Shown here: piece by piece, positions 36,289-58,838 of the stretch
Position numbering within the stretch: the first letter of the stretch is position 1
Layout of the letters: every line of letters starts with the position of its first letter
Assembly (NCBI RefSeq): GCF_029813115.1
Contig: NZ_JAPZDS010000002.1
Span: 310,001-374,000, forward strand
Source: Aureimonas sp. SK2
GTDB lineage: Bacteria; Pseudomonadota; Alphaproteobacteria; Rhizobiales; Rhizobiaceae
Reading direction: 5' to 3'
DNA length: 64,000 nucleotides
Translations under genes and position numbers: made by a program
The notes under the pieces: generated by a model
The model's input: only the letters and a program-made list of their open reading frames with translations
The model's database searches: none
Told to the model about the DNA's origin: nothing

Positions 36289-37821
36289 ATGATCTCACGC
36301 GTCAGGACCGTGGCCTTCCAGGGCGTCGACGCCATTCCGGTCGATGTCGAGGTGATGGTCGCGCCCGGCAAGATGGGCATGCAGATCGTCGGCCTCGCCG
36401 ACAAGGCGGTGGCGGAAAGCCGCGAGCGGGTGCAGGCCGCGCTCCACGCCTCCGGCCTCGCGATGCCGCCCAAGCGCGTGACGGTCAACCTCGCGCCCGC
36501 CGACCTGCCCAAGGAAGGCTCGCACTACGATCTCCCCATCGCCCTCGGCCTGATGGCGGCGCTCGGCGCCCTGCCGGCCGACCGGCTCGCCGACTATCTC
36601 GTGCTCGGCGAGCTCTCGCTCGGCGGCACGGTCTCGCCGGTCGCCGGCGTCCTGCCGGCCGCCATGACCGCGCACGAGAATTCGCTCGGCCTGATCTGTC
36701 CGGAAGCCGGCGGCCCGGAGGCCGCCTGGGCCAGCGTCGACATGCCCATCGTCGCCGCCCGCAGCCTGATCCAGATCGCCAACCACTTCCGCGGCACGCA
36801 GGTGCTCGGCCGGCCCGAGCCCGCCGTGCGGGTGGCCGCCTCCGACCTGCCCGACATGGCCGACATCCGCGGCCAGGCGGCGGCCCGCCGCGCGCTCGAA
36901 GTCGCGGCCGCCGGCGGCCACAACATGCTGATGTGCGGGCCGCCGGGTTCCGGCAAGTCGATGCTGGCCGGGCGCCTGCCCTCCATCCTGCCGCCGCTGG
37001 TGCCGGCCGAGATTCTCGACGTCTCGCGCATCGCTTCCATCGCCGGCGAGCTCTCGGATGGGCGCCTGTCCGACCGCCGCCCGTTCCGCGCGCCTCATCA
37101 CTCCGCCTCCATGGCAGCCATGGTCGGCGGCGGCCAGCGCACCCGGCCGGGCGAGGTGTCGCTCAGCCATCGCGGCGTGCTCTTCCTCGACGAGCTTCCC
37201 GAATTCTCGCCCGCCGTTCTCGATTCCCTGCGCCAGCCGATCGAGAGCGGGGAAAGCGTCATCGCCCGCGCCAACTACCGCGTCACCTATCCCGCCCGCT
37301 TCCAGCTCGTCGCCGCCATGAATCCCTGCCGCTGCGGCATGGCCGGCGAGCCCGGCCACACCTGCGCCCGCGGCCCGCGCTGCGCCAGCGACTACCAGGC
37401 GCGCATCTCCGGCCCGCTCCTCGACCGCATCGACATCCGCATCGACGTGCCCGCCGTTTCCGCCGCCGACCTCCTGACGGCCGCGCCCTCCGAGCCTTCC
37501 GAAGTCGTGCGCGCCCGCGTCGAAGCCGCGCGTCGCATCCAGGCCGCCCGCTTTGAGGCGCTCGGCCTGCCCGCGACCACCCTCAACGCCCATTGCTCCG
37601 CGTCGCTCGTCGAGCGCGTCGCCGCCCCGGACGCGGCCGCCGCAAAGCTCCTGCGCGAGGCCGCCGAGCGCATGGCCTTCTCCGCCCGCGCCTACCACCG
37701 CATCCTGAAGGTCGCCCGAACCCTCGCCGACCTCGCCGGCTCCGACACCGTCGGCCGCCCCCACCTCGCCGAAGCCATCAGCTACCGCGTCGCCACCGAG
37801 CGGCCGGCGGTCGCGGGGTAG
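36289..37821 (+). CDS. comM: YifB/ComM-like Mg-chelatase-type AAA+ ATPase
   Basis: A 510-residue AAA+ protein of the YifB/ComM family. In ComM-studied bacteria it acts as a hexameric helicase promoting branch migration during natural transformation. The N-terminal domain resembles ATP-dependent protease fold S5-like (residues 1-170). Walker A GPPGSGKSM lies at about 222, Walker B VLFLDELPEFS follows, and a cysteine-bearing PCRCGMAGEPGHTC insert (about 345-358) probably binds zinc. Full length. The downstream gap to the convergent kinase is almost filled by a structured repeat. Confidence 0.9.
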   Translation: MISRVRTVAFQGVDAIPVDVEVMVAPGKMGMQIVGLADKAVAESRERVQAALHASGLAMPPKRVTVNLAPADLPKEGSHYDLPIALGLMAALGALPADRLADYLVLGELSLGGTVSPVAGVLPAAMTAHENSLGLICPEAGGPEAAWASVDMPIVAARSLIQIANHFRGTQVLGRPEPAVRVAASDLPDMADIRGQAAARRALEVAAAGGHNMLMCGPPGSGKSMLAGRLPSILPPLVPAEILDVSRIASIAGELSDGRLSDRRPFRAPHHSASMAAMVGGGQRTRPGEVSLSHRGVLFLDELPEFSPAVLDSLRQPIESGESVIARANYRVTYPARFQLVAAMNPCRCGMAGEPGHTCARGPRCASDYQARISGPLLDRIDIRIDVPAVSAADLLTAAPSEPSEVVRARVEAARRIQAARFEALGLPATTLNAHCSASLVERVAAPDAAAAKLLREAAERMAFSARAYHRILKVARTLADLAGSDTVGRPHLAEAISYRVATERPAVAG

Positions 37822-37838
37822 GGCGCGGCCGGGATTGC

Positions 37839-38011
37839 GGGGCTGCCGCCCCGGTCCCCGCTCGGGAAGGAATTCCCGAACCCTTCTTTTCTATTGGCAG
37901 GTTTCCGAAATCCGGGAGAGCCGCTGGCCCTCCCGGATTTCGGACATCTCTCAACAGATGAGGGGTCCAGGGGAAATCATTTCCCCTGGCGGGGTTTGGG
38001 GCGGCAGCCCC
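37839..38011. repeat. structured intergenic repeat, copy 1 (variable-stem element)
   Basis: A 173-bp element bounded by perfect 14-base inverted repeats, GGGGCTGCCGCCCC (37839-37852) and its complement (37998-38011). Inside are three palindromes. First, CGGGAA/TTCCCG with loop GGAA (37863-37878). Second, a 19-position central hairpin (37904-37922 with 37926-37944) having one A-C mismatch and apex GCC-GCT-GGC. Third, an 11-bp palindrome CCAGGGGAAAT and its complement about one C (37966-37988). A second, inverted copy lies at 46755-46926. No open frame is shared. It fills the gap between convergent comM and pfkB-type genes. Confidence 0.88.
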
Positions 38012-38026
38012 ATTATCTAGCCGCCC

Positions 38027-39025
38027 CTATCCCAGGATCGCCCGGACCTCCGGCAGCGCGGCGAGCGGCGTCTGCGGGCGGGGGCCGACTTGCGCGATGA
38101 TGTGGCCGGCGGCGATGGCGCCGAGGCGGGCGGAGGTTTCGTGGCCGAGGCCGGCGGTGTAGCCGCGCAGGAAGCCGGAGGCGAAGAGGTCTCCAGCGCC
38201 GGTCGTGTCGACGACATCGGGGACGAGGGTGGCGGGGAAGGCCTGGGCGTTCGCGCCTTCCACGACGACGCAGCCGTCGGGGCCGCGGGTGACGACGGCA
38301 AGGCGCCGGGCGTCCTGGCCGAAATGGTGGAGCGCCTCTTCGAGGACCTCGGTCTGGTAGAGGGCGAGGGCTTCGGCTTCGTTGGCGAAGACGATGTCGA
38401 CGGTGCCGGACCGCATGAGGTCGAGGAATTCGGCGCGGTAGCGGTGGACGCAGAAGCTGTCGGAGAGCGTCATGGCGACCTCGCGGCCGGCGTCGTGCGC
38501 GATCTTCGCGGCCTGGAGGATGGCGTCCTTGGCGCGGGGCGGATCCCAAAGGTAGCCCTCGAAATAGGTGACGCGGGAGCTGGCCACGATCTCGGGCACG
38601 ACGTCGTCCGGCGACAGCTCGACGCAGGCGCCGAGATAGGTGTTCATCGACCGCTCGCCATCGGGCGTGACGAGGATCATGGAGCGGGCGGTGGGCGGCG
38701 TGCCGCCGAGCGGCTTCGTCTCGTAGCGGATGCCGAGCGAGCGGATGTCGTGGGCGAAGATGCGGCCGAGCTGGTCGTCCGACACTTTGCCGAAATAGGC
38801 GCCGGTGCCGCCGAGCGAGACAAGGCCGGCGACCGTGTTGCCGGCGCTGCCGCCCGACATCTCCGTGGCGGGACCCATCCTGGCGTAGAGTTCCTCGGCG
38901 CGCGCGGCATCGATCAGCGTCATGGCGCCCTTCTCGATGCCGGCCTCGCGGAGAAAGGCGTCGTCGGTGCGCGAGATGATGTCGACGATGGCGTTGCCGA
39001 TCGTCAGGAGGTCGTATTCGGCCAT
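38027..39025 (-). CDS. adenosine kinase-like PfkB family sugar kinase
   Basis: A 332-residue PfkB/ribokinase-family kinase, closest in pattern to bacterial adenosine kinases. The N-terminal substrate motif is MSGGSAGNTVAGLVSLGG (about 55-72), and the C-terminal anion-hole/catalytic motif VVDTTGAGDLFASGFL (about 268-283) contains the base aspartate. The start at 39025 begins AEYDLLTIGNAIVDI. It is the last gene of a minus-strand run beginning at rph, with a 28-bp gap after yraN. Confidence 0.88.
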   Translation of the reverse strand: MAEYDLLTIGNAIVDIISRTDDAFLREAGIEKGAMTLIDAARAEELYARMGPATEMSGGSAGNTVAGLVSLGGTGAYFGKVSDDQLGRIFAHDIRSLGIRYETKPLGGTPPTARSMILVTPDGERSMNTYLGACVELSPDDVVPEIVASSRVTYFEGYLWDPPRAKDAILQAAKIAHDAGREVAMTLSDSFCVHRYRAEFLDLMRSGTVDIVFANEAEALALYQTEVLEEALHHFGQDARRLAVVTRGPDGCVVVEGANAQAFPATLVPDVVDTTGAGDLFASGFLRGYTAGLGHETSARLGAIAAGHIIAQVGPRPQTPLAALPEVRAILG

Positions 39026-39053
39026 GCGGGACGGGACCTTGTGTTGGGAGCGG

Positions 39054-39431
39054 TCAGGCGGAGACCCAAGCATTGGGAATATGCACCGGCCAGCGGCGCG
39101 GCAGGACGGCGACGATGTCGAAGCGGAGCGAGAGGCGGGCGTGGTCGCGCTGCTGTCCGAGCCAGAGTTCGGCGGCGCGGGTGATGCGGGCCTGCGCGGC
39201 GGGCGTCACGGCCTCCATCGCGGCTTCCAGCGTGGCGCGGGCCTTCACCTCGACGATCGCGACCGTGTCGCCGCGCCGGGCCACGAGGTCGATCTCTCCG
39301 AGCTTCGTGCGGTGGCGCTGGGCGAGGATGCGATACCCCTTGAGCCGCAGGGCCCAGGCCGCCAGCCATTCGCCGCGATGGCCCTTGGCAAAACGCGCGC
39401 GGCGCTCGGCGAGGCGGTCGGGCGCCGTCAT
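39054..39431 (-). CDS. UPF0102/YraN family nuclease-fold protein
   Basis: A 125-residue YraN-family protein with a restriction-endonuclease-like core. [23 protein letters not shown] (about 44-66) supplies the acidic residues and lysine typical of PD-(D/E)XK folds. The cellular role is unknown. The ATG overlaps the rsmI stop by 4 bp (ATGA), so it is translationally coupled to it, as in many proteobacteria. Confidence 0.92.
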
Positions 39432-44758: not shown

Positions 44759-45886
44759 ATGAAGCTCGGACCTCCCCTTTCCCTGCCCCGCGATGCGATG
44801 GACCGCCGCCTCGACCTCGGCCAGGCCCTGGACGAGCGTTCGCGCGAGATTTTTCGGCTGATCGTCGACACCTATCTGGATTCCGGCGAACCGGTCGGGT
44901 CGCGCAACCTGTCGCGCCTGTTGACCAGCTCGCTGTCGCCCGCCTCCATCCGCAACGTCATGTCGGACCTGGAAGCGCTCGGGCTGATCTACGCCCCGCA
45001 TGTATCGGCGGGCCGGCTGCCGACCGAGATCGGGCTGCGCTTCTTCGTGGACGCCTTTCTCGAGGCCGGCGACCTGCCCGAGCGCGAGCGCCTCGAGATC
45101 GAGGAGCGGGTGCGCGCCGAGGGGGAGCGGCGCCCCGTGGACGCCCTTCTCACCGAGGCCTCGCAGCTCCTGTCCGGCCTGTCGCGTGGGGCGGGGATCG
45201 TTCTCGCCTCCAAGGCCGACATCCGCCTCAAGCATATCGAGTTCGTGCGCCTCGATTCGTCCCGCGCGCTGGTCGTCCTCGTCGGCGAGAACGGCGAGGT
45301 CGAGAACCGCGTCCTCGAACTCACCCCCGGCATCACCGCGTCCCAGCTGGTCGAAGCCACCAACTTCCTCAACGCCCATGTGGTGGGGCGCACGCTCAGT
45401 GAGGCGCGCGCGCGCATCGCCGCCCTGAAGGACGACACCGCCCGCGCCCTCGACCGCCTGTCGCAGGAGCTCGTCGAGGCGGGTCTCGCCGTCTGGTCGG
45501 GCGGCGGGGCGGGCACGCCGTCGCGGCTCATCGTGCGCGGGCGCGCCAACCTCCTCGACAGCGTCACCGCGGCGCCCGACCTCGAACGGCTGCGCCATCT
45601 CTTCGACGACCTCGAATCCAAGAGCTCGATTATGGAGCTGATCGACCTCGCGGAAGCCGGCAACGGCGTGCGCATCTTCATCGGATCGGAGAACAAGCTC
45701 TTCTCCATGTCCGGCTCGTCGCTCGTCATCGCGCCCTACAGCGACGGCGAGGACCGCGTGATCGGCGCGGTCGGCGTGATCGGCCCGACCCGGCTCAACT
45801 ACCGCCGGATCGTGCCCATGGTGGACTACACCGCCCGGCTCGTCTCGCGCCTTCTTTCGGGCACCGCGCCGCCCCGCCGGCCTTGA
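44759..45886 (+). CDS. hrcA: heat-inducible transcription repressor HrcA
   Basis: Repressor of groESL-type heat-shock genes through CIRCE elements. The 375-residue product has an N-terminal winged helix ([28 protein letters not shown], about 28-55), [19 protein letters not shown] and then [22 protein letters not shown]-like dimerisation and insert domain makes up the rest. The ATG at 44759 lacks a Shine-Dalgarno; the next ATG at 44798 would shorten it by 13 residues. grpE follows. Confidence 0.94.
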
Positions 45887-46005
45887 TTTTCGGCCTTTCC
45901 CATTCGATATCCCGCACCGACCCACACGAGGCGGAACCGCTGTCGGCCGCGCGCGGCGGCAGGCGGCTCCGGCCTGATCCACACGACCAAGGAGCGCCCC
46001 CTTCG

Positions 46006-46734
46006 ATGACGAGCGAGACCGACAACAGCGCGAGCAAGGGCGATGCGACGACGGGCGGCCAGGCCTTCTTCAAGGGCGGCGGCAGCGCGGGCGCGACGCC
46101 CGGCGACATGAACGCGCCCCATCTCCACGGTGCCGAGGGCGACGAGACCGTGCCGACCTGGGGCGGTGCCCAGGCCTCCGAGGCCGACCGCGCGCGCATT
46201 GCCGAGCTCGAGGCCGAGAACGCCGACGTCAAGGACCGCATGCTGCGCCTCGCCGCCGACATGGAGAACCTGCGCCGGCGCACCGAGCGCGAGATCAAGG
46301 ACGCGCGCCAGTTCGCCGTCGCCAACTTCGCGCGCGACATGCTCTCCGTCTCCGACAATCTCGATCGCGCCCTCCAGGCCCTGCCGGAGGGCGCCCGCGA
46401 GGGCGGCGACGCCGGCTTCACCGCCCTGGTCGAGGGCGTCGAGATGACCGGCCGCTCCATGCTTTCGGCCATGGAGCGCCACGGCGTGAAGAAGCTCGAG
46501 CCGCTCAACCAGCGCTTCGACCCGAACTTCCACCAGGCCATGTTCGAGGTCCCCAACCCGGACCTGCCCGCCAACACCGTCGTCCAGGTGGTCCAGGAAG
46601 GTTACGCCATCGGCGAGCGCGTGCTGCGTCCCGCCCTCGTCGGCGTCTCCAAGGGCGGCCCTAAGGCCGCGGCGCCTGCCGTCGGCCCCGACACCAAGCC
46701 CGGCGTGCCCGACGAGAGCACCAAGGACGCCTGA
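46006..46734 (+). CDS. grpE: nucleotide exchange factor GrpE
   Basis: DnaK cochaperone that releases ADP and acts as a thermosensor. The 242-residue protein has a disordered N-terminal 60 residues, the long coiled-coil helix ([29 protein letters not shown], about 65-93) and the beta-domain with [12 protein letters not shown] and [22 protein letters not shown]. The C-terminal Ala/Pro/Lys tail is low complexity. The ribosome binding site is AAGGAG. It is probably cotranscribed with hrcA across a 119-bp spacer. Confidence 0.95.
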
Positions 46735-46754
46735 GGGCGTGGCCGGGGATCGGC

Positions 46755-46926
46755 AGGGGCGCTGCCCCTGCACCCCGCCAGGGAAATGATTTCCCTGGAC
46801 CCTCCTCATACGAAGAATGTCCAAAGAGAAAGGGGGCCGCTGGCCCCCTTTCTCTTTGGAGAAATCCTCAAATGAAAAGAAGGGTTCGGGAATTCCTTCC
46901 CGAGCGGGGCAGGGGGCGGCAGCCCC
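46755..46926. repeat. structured intergenic repeat, copy 2 (inverted relative to copy 1)
   Basis: Homologous to the element at 37839-38011 but in the opposite orientation. Its right end has the same GGGGCGGCAGCCCC (46913-46926). The left end is GGGGC-GCT-GCCCC (46756-46768), a hairpin in its own right. The CGGGAATTCCTTCCCG palindrome (46887-46902) is identical to copy 1 read from the other strand. The CCAGGGAAAT palindrome (46779-46799) is one base shorter on each arm. The central hairpin is a perfect 19-bp stem (46820-46838 with 46842-46860) over loop GCT, with stem sequence mostly different from copy 1. It lies between convergent grpE and folD. Confidence 0.88.
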
Positions 46927-46946
46927 GCCATCCCCATCCGCGCCCC

Positions 46947-47852
46947 TCAGAACGTCGGCGGCGTCTCGCCGGCGGCGCGGTAGGCGGCGGTGACGGTGTT
47001 GGCCATGAGCATGGCGATGGTCATGGGGCCGACGCCACCGGGGACGGGGGTGATGGCGGAGGCGATGTCGGCGGCCTCGGCGTAGGCGACGTCGCCGACG
47101 AGGCGGGTCTTGCCCTCGCCGCGCTCGGGGGCTTCGATGCGGTTGATGCCGACGTCGATGACCACCGCGCCGGGCTTGACGCAGTCGGGACCGAGCGCCT
47201 GCGGGCGGCCGATGGCGGCGACGAGGATGTCGGCCTCGCGGCAGAGGGCGGGAAGGTCCTTCGTGCGCGAATGGGCGACCGTGACGGTGGCGTTGGCCAG
47301 GAGCAGGAGCTGGGCCATCGGCTTGCCGACGAGGTTGGACCGTCCGACGACCACCGCGCGCCTGCCCGACAGGTCGTCGGCACCGAGCGCCCGGCGAAGC
47401 AGCACCATGCAGCCGGCGGGCGTGCAGGGGACGAAAGCCTGATCCGGCTGGCCGGAGGCGAGGCGGCCGGCATTGACCACGGTGAGGCCGTCGACGTCCT
47501 TGTCGGGATGGATGCGCCCGACCACCGCGTCGGCGTCGAGGCCCTTGGGCAGGGGAAGCTGCTGCAGGATGCCGTGGATGGCGGGGTCGGCGTTGAGCAG
47601 GTCGATCAGGGCGAGGAGTTCGGCCTGCGGCACGTCGGCGGGGAGGCGGTGCGTCACGGAGTGGAAGCCGCATTCCTGTGCCATGCGGCCCTTGGAGCCG
47701 ACATAGACCTGGCTCGCCGGATCCTCGCCGACGAGCACCACGGCCAGTCCCGGCTTCACGCCATGCCGCGATTCGAGCTCGGACGCCGACGCCTTGACCG
47801 TCGCCAGCACGTCCTGGGCCACCAGCTTTCCGTCGATCCGCGTCGCTGCCAT
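46947..47852 (-). CDS. folD: bifunctional methylene-THF dehydrogenase / methenyl-THF cyclohydrolase
   Basis: Interconverts 5,10-methylene-THF and 10-formyl-THF. The 301-residue product has the catalytic lysine/tyrosine region [19 protein letters not shown] (about 44-62), [14 protein letters not shown] (about 96), the NADP loop [16 protein letters not shown] (about 165-180) and the C-terminal [14 protein letters not shown] (about 270). Full length. Confidence 0.96.
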
Positions 47853-58548: not shown

Positions 58549-58593
58549 GGGATTCAACCTCCGTGACGACGCCCGGAATGGGCGTCTCGCAAC

Positions 58594-58775
58594 GGATGGC
58601 AGGTCTCCTGGCTCGCGGGTCATCGGCGGTCCCCTGCCTTCCCGGACGAAACCGTCCAGTGGCGTTTCCGACAGTCGCCTGCCGGCGGGGGCGCCTCGCC
58701 GCTCTACAGTCGCGGGGTCGGCTGCGATACGGGCCCTTGGTTTAAGTCGGCCCTTCGCATTCCCTCTTAGCCTGC
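58594..58775 (-). promoter_or_regulatory. cobalamin riboswitch
   Basis: Read on the minus strand, the region contains the conserved cobalamin-riboswitch elements in order: GGGAA near its 5' end, CCCCGCGACTGTAGAG, GGCGACTGTCGG, AACGCCACTGG, the GGGAAGGCAGGGG block and, near its 3' end, the B12 box GAGCCAGGAGACCTGCC (about 58597-58613). It ends about 45 nt before cbtB. Adenosylcobalamin binding should reduce expression of cbtBA-cobUWNO. Boundaries are approximate. Confidence 0.95.
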
Positions 58776-58810
58776 CGGCGCGAGGGGCGCGGCAGGACCA
58801 TCCGCGCGCG

Positions 58811-58838
58811 AGGATAGACGGGGCGGCGGCGCTGTCAA
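58811..58838 (-). promoter_or_regulatory. promoter of the cobalamin operon
   Basis: On the minus strand TTGACA (58838-58833), a 16-bp spacer and TATCCT (58816-58811). The -35 is a perfect consensus. Transcription should begin near 58804, so the whole riboswitch lies in the leader. Confidence 0.7.

Follow-up and report, generated by a model that had tools for sequence, protein, structure and literature searches.

A REPIN-like palindromic element between genes of Aureimonas, with a central hairpin that appears constrained in length and pairing and free in sequence

Background

How long, perfectly matched stems can change their letters and yet stay paired is an old question, and the usual answer is selection on an RNA that changes by way of G-U steps. 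Template switching has recently been described as an alternative in rRNA, where constraint on the loops makes loop inversions rare (available text of PMC8794818). The same question is raised by two intergenic loci in a 64,000-nucleotide stretch of Aureimonas DNA, called the window here at its full length. A sequence-only reading of the window had described two copies of one hairpin element, alike in their flanks and differing in the stem of the central hairpin, and had offered either selection for a hairpin or a process that rewrites one arm from the other. The two copies are compared here with further copies from the same and other genomes.

Results and discussion

Structure of the two copies in the window

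Both window copies are intergenic elements of about 175 bp with five hairpins apiece (H1 to H5), copy 1 at 37838-38011 and copy 2 at 46753-46927. A closing stem, P1, has one strand between H1 and H2 and the other between H4 and H5. Copy 1 lies between genes for a YifB-family and a PfkB-family protein and copy 2 between grpE and folD, and the genes of each pair are convergent. The features are as follows.

36289..37821, plus strand: YifB-family Mg chelatase-like ATPase gene, ending at copy 1
37838..37853, plus strand: copy 1 H1, left-end hairpin CGGGGC-TGCC-GCCCCG
37856..37861, plus strand: copy 1 P1 5' strand CCCCGC (helix 1), bases 1-5 pairing with 37990-37994
37863..37878, plus strand: copy 1 H2, hairpin CGGGAA-GGAA-TTCCCG (helix 2)
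37904..37944, plus strand: copy 1 H3, variable 19-bp central hairpin, loop GCT, one A-C mismatch (helix 4)
37967..37989, plus strand: copy 1 H4, hairpin CCAGGGGAAATCATTTCCCCTGG (helix 5)
37990..37994, plus strand: copy 1 P1 3' strand CGGGG, as in the covariation alignment
37998..38011, plus strand: copy 1 H5, right-end hairpin, class D by script
38027..39073, minus strand: PfkB-family kinase gene, convergent, ending at copy 1
45883..46734, plus strand: grpE, its open frame beginning at TTG (possibly upstream of the true start), ending at copy 2
46753..46771, minus strand: copy 2 H5, hairpin GCAGGGGCAGCGCCCCTGC, class C by script
46778..46798, minus strand: copy 2 H4, 21-nt form
46820..46860, minus strand: copy 2 H3, perfect 19-bp central hairpin, loop AGC in the H1-to-H5 frame
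46887..46902, minus strand: copy 2 H2
46912..46927, minus strand: copy 2 H1 (core 46913-46926)
46947..47852, minus strand: folD, convergent, ending at copy 2

The first description of the two copies is confirmed. Folding gave z -10.65 and -10.08 for them against 200 dinucleotide shuffles, both far better than the shuffles. A refinement is that copy 2 is the element of copy 1 running in reverse (pair I1, 66 nt, 91% complementary). The central stems of 19 positions are also as first read. In copy 1, 37904-37922 pairs with 37926-37944 at 18 of 19 Watson-Crick positions, the exception being A-C; the stem-calling script prolonged this stem to 24 positions, with two further mismatches. In copy 2, 46820-46838 pairs with 46842-46860 at all 19 positions. 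In a common H1-to-H5 frame the H3 loops are GCT and AGC: the central hairpin starts TCCGAAATCCGGGAGAGCC-GCT in copy 1, with the one A-C mismatch, and TCCAAAGAGAAAGGGGGCC-AGC, free of mismatches, in copy 2. In the same frame H4 is 2 nt shorter in copy 2 than in copy 1. At the left end, strong conservation starts with the GC that precedes GGGGC. No Rfam family matched the element at gathering thresholds; the sole match in the window was a cobalamin riboswitch elsewhere (58581-58816, minus strand, 96.5 bits).

Family size and distribution

The family extends beyond the two copies in the window. The own genome (G000; the other G numbers are compared genomes and L numbers are loci) has the element at eight distinct places, one of them a deletion derivative. 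A first extraction yielded 64 near-full copies, and further copies were added later. The covariance model R1 was built on 34 of the 64, picked for even module lengths, and alignment A1 contains 59 of them. Model R1 finds the element in 14 of 21 Aureimonas genomes, and a DNA search found it in 12 of 31 genomes, the own genome counted. With stricter filters across the order, R1 matched five of 297 genomes: the own genome, and four others in which the matches are short and weak. Exact matches to an H4 pattern include Aureimonas contigs. The element is chromosomal and almost confined to the genus. Plasmid and phage records contained no match at the limits used, and an origin from a plasmid or a phage was rejected on that ground.

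The central hairpin varies in sequence and is constant in length

A length of exactly 19 bp is found for H3 in 53 of the 67 main-set copies and in 36 of 40 additional ones (from 44 loci scanned), even where the sequences of H2 and H4 are quite different. In an alignment of 34 cores, 12 of the 19 H3 pairs have changed on both sides, and none of 500 shuffles reached any of five covariation measures. Over the whole structure 98.2% of the cells in these 34 sequences are paired, with 94.7% in P1, 99.2% in H2 and 99.4% in H4. Mean pairwise identity is 0.51 in the variable H3 columns versus 0.91 in P1 and H2 together and 0.93 in H4; it is 0.68 and 0.57 in the two spacers, and the H3 apex GGGCC/GGCCC is almost invariant (0.95). 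Covariation of the middle stem between flanking palindromes that hardly vary, which the sequence-only reading had named as the expected sign, is therefore present. Nor do the central arms fail to pair in other copies: they pair in nearly all, the exceptions being the deletion derivatives L025, L038 and L039 and the copies with H3 indels (L048, L062, L068 and L082). The figures for length, covariation and identity indicate that length and pairing are constrained more than the letters.

Pairing at the level of DNA or RNA

An H3 that functioned as RNA from one strand would be expected to accept G-U pairs and to reject A-C pairs. Among the 1843 H3 pairs of 97 copies there are 19 mismatches of the G-U type, 30 of the A-C type and 11 others (two-sided P 0.15). 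This count leaves aside the three deletion derivatives and four indel copies of the 67, as well as six of 43 extra copies; three of the extra ones, which show 3 or 4 mismatches, may be mis-centred. A second script counted GT 7, TG 3, AC 11, CA 3 and four others in its 40 extra copies. When the mRNA strand is considered, 33 co-directional copies have 5 G-U, 8 A-C and 3 other mismatches (36 copies less two deletion derivatives and the miscalled copy 2). G-U mismatches do not exceed A-C mismatches in either comparison, so the pairing is not maintained through an RNA of one strand, and selection of that kind was rejected. Of the two alternatives first offered, the rewriting process has gained support and one-strand RNA selection has not.

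A broader RNA explanation is that the element is a selected, structured 3' end of the neighbouring mRNAs, a terminator or a barrier to RNase and perhaps bidirectional, in which compensation arises by selection alone. The convergent genes around both window copies agree with this, as do the strong predicted RNA folding and the finding that 17 of 19 sites have one or more genes ending at them, according to crude ORF calls that leave two rearranged G018 sites uncounted and misjudge copy 2, which is really convergent. G-U pairs would also be untolerated if folding were needed on both strands, and an RNA acting from both strands at convergent sites is compatible with the mismatch counts. A terminator-like match was found once, at H2, and is weak (shuffle mean 0.2). 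On the other hand, there is no G-U excess overall or on the mRNA strand, and one site (site 0), which by ORF call lies between divergent genes, is occupied in every element-bearing genome. The in-place inversion and the adjacent mirrored changes described below would be left unexplained. For these reasons the RNA explanation is regarded as unlikely.

Inherited sites and inversion in place

Comparison of the flanks, with site groups defined by blastn, places most copies in shared intergenic sites. Each of the 14 element-bearing genomes has a copy at site 0, which in G018 is a deletion derivative, and the seven other genomes have none there. At the YifB/PfkB site the element has one orientation in G000, G012, G015 and G016 and the opposite one in G002, G004 and G009; in G006 the two stop codons at this site are 11 bp apart. 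The grpE/folD site contains the element in G000, G002, G004, G009 and G015 and is rearranged in G018, and in G008 and G031 the matched flanks are separated by 16 bp. In G006 the copy at this site (L263, 1880-2030) is decayed, with a GGGGGCC-GAC-GGCCCCC apex and an H5-like GC-rich piece left and with H1, H2 and H4 unrecognisable.

Among pairs of copies from one site the two orientations occur about equally often, even when the flanks are very similar. Pairs of copies at the same site with at least 92% flank identity comprise seven in the same orientation and nine inverted; all inversions are between species, one genome being compared per species. A tree of site 0, built from 860-nt flanks of 14 genomes, shows five changes of orientation, of which at least four are forced by well-supported branches, and the sister pairs G008/G031, G010/G001 and G032/G016 are of opposite orientation. 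In 500 of 500 label shuffles no more orientation changes were required than with the real labels, and orientation therefore carries no phylogenetic signal.

The inverted copies retain features of their site. The H5 class is common to 25 of 50 inverted same-site pairs versus 29 of 55 pairs in the same orientation, against backgrounds of 63 of 200 (other sites, one genome) and 343 of 1586 (other sites, other genomes); permutation within genomes gave a mean of 14 for the inverted pairs and reached 25 in 5 of 5000 trials. The H1/H2 class is kept in 45 of 60 inverted same-site pairs (11 of 5000 permutations), although its background is high (883 of 1686). Arm identity of inverted same-site pairs is 0.556, a value reached in 10 of 2000 permutations, and L060 and L081, a pair of opposite orientation, have in common an arm sequence that no other of 61 copies shows. 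Because H5 class, H1/H2 class and arm identity survive the flips, inversion in place is a better account than refilling of the site. Beyond each end, the adjoining 30 nt make up inverted repeats that are specific to the site (score 8.7 vs 6.8; 0 of 20000 permutations; 60 copies at 20 sites), and such repeats would either help inversion or arise from it.

An inversion with clean ends between terminal inverted repeats, seen here between species only, is what a site-specific recombinase would produce, and the element might then be an invertible segment, perhaps a switch. All of the 21 genomes have serine-recombinase genes, which could supply the enzyme. However, neither these genes nor the IS110-type genes (11 of 21) track the element (14 of 21), and for want of a phyletic match among the 21 genomes both are less likely as flipping enzymes. 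None of the four genes flanking the window copies is a recombinase, and the rewriting of H3 would stay unexplained, which makes this account improbable. Resolvase-family matches were noted at G006:C25:47860-48336, G016:C1:9960-10436 and G011:C37:107149-107625; their coordinates suggest that they face, or closely adjoin, the stretch of the YifB gene that encodes the N-terminus.

Ectopic recombination alone, by which sites would be refilled in either direction or have their centres swapped, with neither true inversion nor arm templating, accords with centres that are homogenised within genomes, with three sites of G015 that have alike centres and an H5 as in other species at the same site, and with a chromosomal inversion in G018 between the two window sites. 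It fits poorly with inverted pairs that hold the H5 class, H1/H2 class and arm identity of their site, and exchange by itself makes no new matched arms; as a sole explanation it is very unlikely. The G018 inversion is suggested by the hybrid flanks of L031 and L034, with breakpoints at elements that match those at window positions 37839 and 46755.

Probable ways of rewriting the stem

Two rewriting processes are visible among the copies, exchange within genomes and neighbouring mirrored changes in the arms. For the first, arms from the same genome have an identity of 0.507 vs 0.474 under the null model, reached in 4 of 2000 permutations, and G015 has the common centre at its three sites, each with the H5 class that other species show there. 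For the second, arms that differ at two pairs do so at neighbouring pairs in 11 of 25 cases vs 4.0 expected (P 0.0008). A minimum spanning tree of 46 distinct perfect arms gives neighbouring changes in 7 of 16 cases vs 2.6 expected (P 0.008; all edges P 0.0025). The copies are not independent because of shared ancestry, and the within-genome permutations and the spanning tree lessen the effect of kinship on these statistics and do not remove it.

Neighbouring, mirrored changes of several bases are as predicted by copying of one arm from the other. Template switching predicts multiple compensatory changes in one event (available text of PMC8794818), and in quasipalindrome correction of Escherichia coli one arm is copied from the other (available text of PMC7202029). 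The loops give mixed evidence. The H3 loop is GCT in 11 and AGC in 11 copies of the main set, that is, symmetric between strands, and in the 40 extra copies AGC was counted by eye 13 times and GCT twice. In 99 pairs with close arms, direct resemblance (42) is no rarer than inverted resemblance (34), with 23 ties. No H2 loop of the NTCN kind is found in the 59 alignment rows, and the H4 loop in these rows is TCA in 56 and TCG in one, with two not centred by the script, so that H4 shows no loop inversion. The uninverted loops of H2 and H4 imply that template switching is restricted at some hairpins, or that selection eliminates its products. Loop inversion was accordingly rejected as proof of template switching and kept as suggestive.

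The close pairs L054/L064 and L058/L078 retain uncompensated mismatches, from which it follows that correction can lag behind mutation. Much of the pattern could also come from selection on both strands together with gene conversion.

A proposed explanation

The reading that fits these results best, and that is held to be somewhat probable, is a REPIN-like intergenic DNA palindrome, with no RAYT detected in the 19 genus genomes searched, in which the length and pairing of H3 are constrained and its letters are free. We infer the rewriting machinery and the function of the element from the patterns among copies. The functional form would be a DNA hairpin, single-stranded at the replication fork, or a cruciform. 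After a mutation in one H3 arm, a polymerase may switch template at the hairpin and copy arm from arm, by which both arms would change at several bases simultaneously. At the outer ends, such switching or a different process acting on inverted repeats would flip the whole element, and ectopic gene conversion among copies may spread new centres within a genome. H3 appears rewritten amid conserved flanks because both arms would be replaced together, by arm templating or by conversion. The strict length of 19 bp suggests that the hairpin is selected by a putative structure-reading protein.

A more specific proposal, put forward tentatively and with less confidence, is a transposase-free class of REPIN-like elements at fixed sites that combines arm-to-arm copying, flipping by template switching and selection for a DNA hairpin of exactly 19 bp. 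If this is true, the element would be a natural recorder of template-switch events in bacteria. The element allows a direct test of how stems are rewritten, since it combines a hairpin at the DNA level, whose interior is free to vary, with many copies at fixed sites and of recorded orientation. The family is also REPIN-like although no RAYT could be detected, and it shows one intergenic element inverting in place repeatedly, flips that a comparison of gene order alone would miss. The inherited sites, the inversion in place, the site-specific end variants that survive it, the adjacent mirrored arm changes and the homogenisation within genomes are new. The sites, the inversion, the homogenisation and the constant length of 19 bp are not visible from the window by itself.

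Comparison with known systems

The sequence-only reading knew of no named family with this arrangement, but the published account of REPINs has conserved ends, frequent compensatory changes, and a spacer that keeps its length and its capacity to form a hairpin (available text of PMC3116915). The element resembles them in being intergenic, in its conserved hairpin ends, in its hairpin-forming spacer of fixed length and in its compensatory changes. Its inverted ends, H1 and H5, are related hairpins and not exact copies. Unlike REPINs, the element has five hairpins, is about 175 bp long with a variable 19-bp stem, and occupies inherited sites at which it inverts in place, eight places in its own genome. 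The REP tag of REPIN/RAYT systems is of the GTAG/CGTC type (available text of PMC3733652). A Y1/RAYT gene (PF01797, Y1_Tnp, E at most 1e-3) was found in 0 of 19 Aureimonas genomes, a search that a very diverged protein could escape and that covered neither G031 nor G032, versus matches in 5 of 14 control genomes. The element is therefore not classed as a REPIN, although it could operate in a similar way, and derivation from IS200/IS605 was rejected since the TnpA Y1 gene was not found in the 19 genomes searched. Movement by a RAYT or IS200-type Y1 transposase acting on single-stranded hairpins, the route first suggested for rewriting, has the REPIN-like anatomy in its favour, but with this search result and with few copies (eight places in G000) that are mostly at shared sites it is highly improbable.

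Quasipalindrome correction and template switching resemble the proposed process in that imperfect inverted-repeat arms are equalised in one event (available text of PMC7202029 and PMC8794818), with multiple compensatory changes and loop inversions as the expected signs (PMC8794818). The element differs from these in being a dispersed repeat family with a free centre, in that the process is proposed from patterns among copies, and in its uninverted H2 and H4 loops. RIME are palindromic intergenic elements of the same order. They are cited as Rhizobium-specific intergenic mosaic elements (available text of PMC2873474) and by description resemble the present element. For the latter, model matches in other genomes of the order were weak and confined to four of 296, and no plasmid record matched it. 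The intrastrand triplex motifs of E. coli are likewise repeated, intergenic, structured DNA and are locally more variable than control regions, but have a 37-nt triplex anatomy (available text of PMC4666352). In the literature covered, available in part and consisting mostly of papers outside subscription journals, there was no report of this element or of inversion in place of REP-like repeats.

Derivatives and related sequences

The deletion derivatives L025, L038 and L039 are without the H3 apex and 3' arm, and their junctions are at repeats resembling GAGGAGGGG or GGGGAGGGG; they probably arose from slippage across the hairpin. In eight loci (L026, L051, L067, L079, L091, L095, L240 and L251) an extra hairpin-like block with GGTCTCGCCCGTCC or a near match stands directly before H2. 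The H1-P1 stretch is still present upstream of the block in L079 and L091, and the block looks as if inserted between P1 and H2.

The 29-base H4 stretch is found unchanged in MAGs of Desulfovibrio and Bilophila (L102, L103, L113, L118, L119 and L120), where a GGGGCAGCGCCCC hairpin comes next. A single origin of the whole element across phyla is not claimed, because palindromes hold information for only about half of their length. Among 398 genomes of the phylum searched, the H4 pattern was found in four genomes of one other genus (G390, G394, G428 and G443), with 1 to 22 copies per genome (loci L206-L209, L211-L213, L215-L217 and L219-L224). The 13 of these loci that were viewed have an H4-H5 pair without H1-H3, and the variation in their H4 is compensated.
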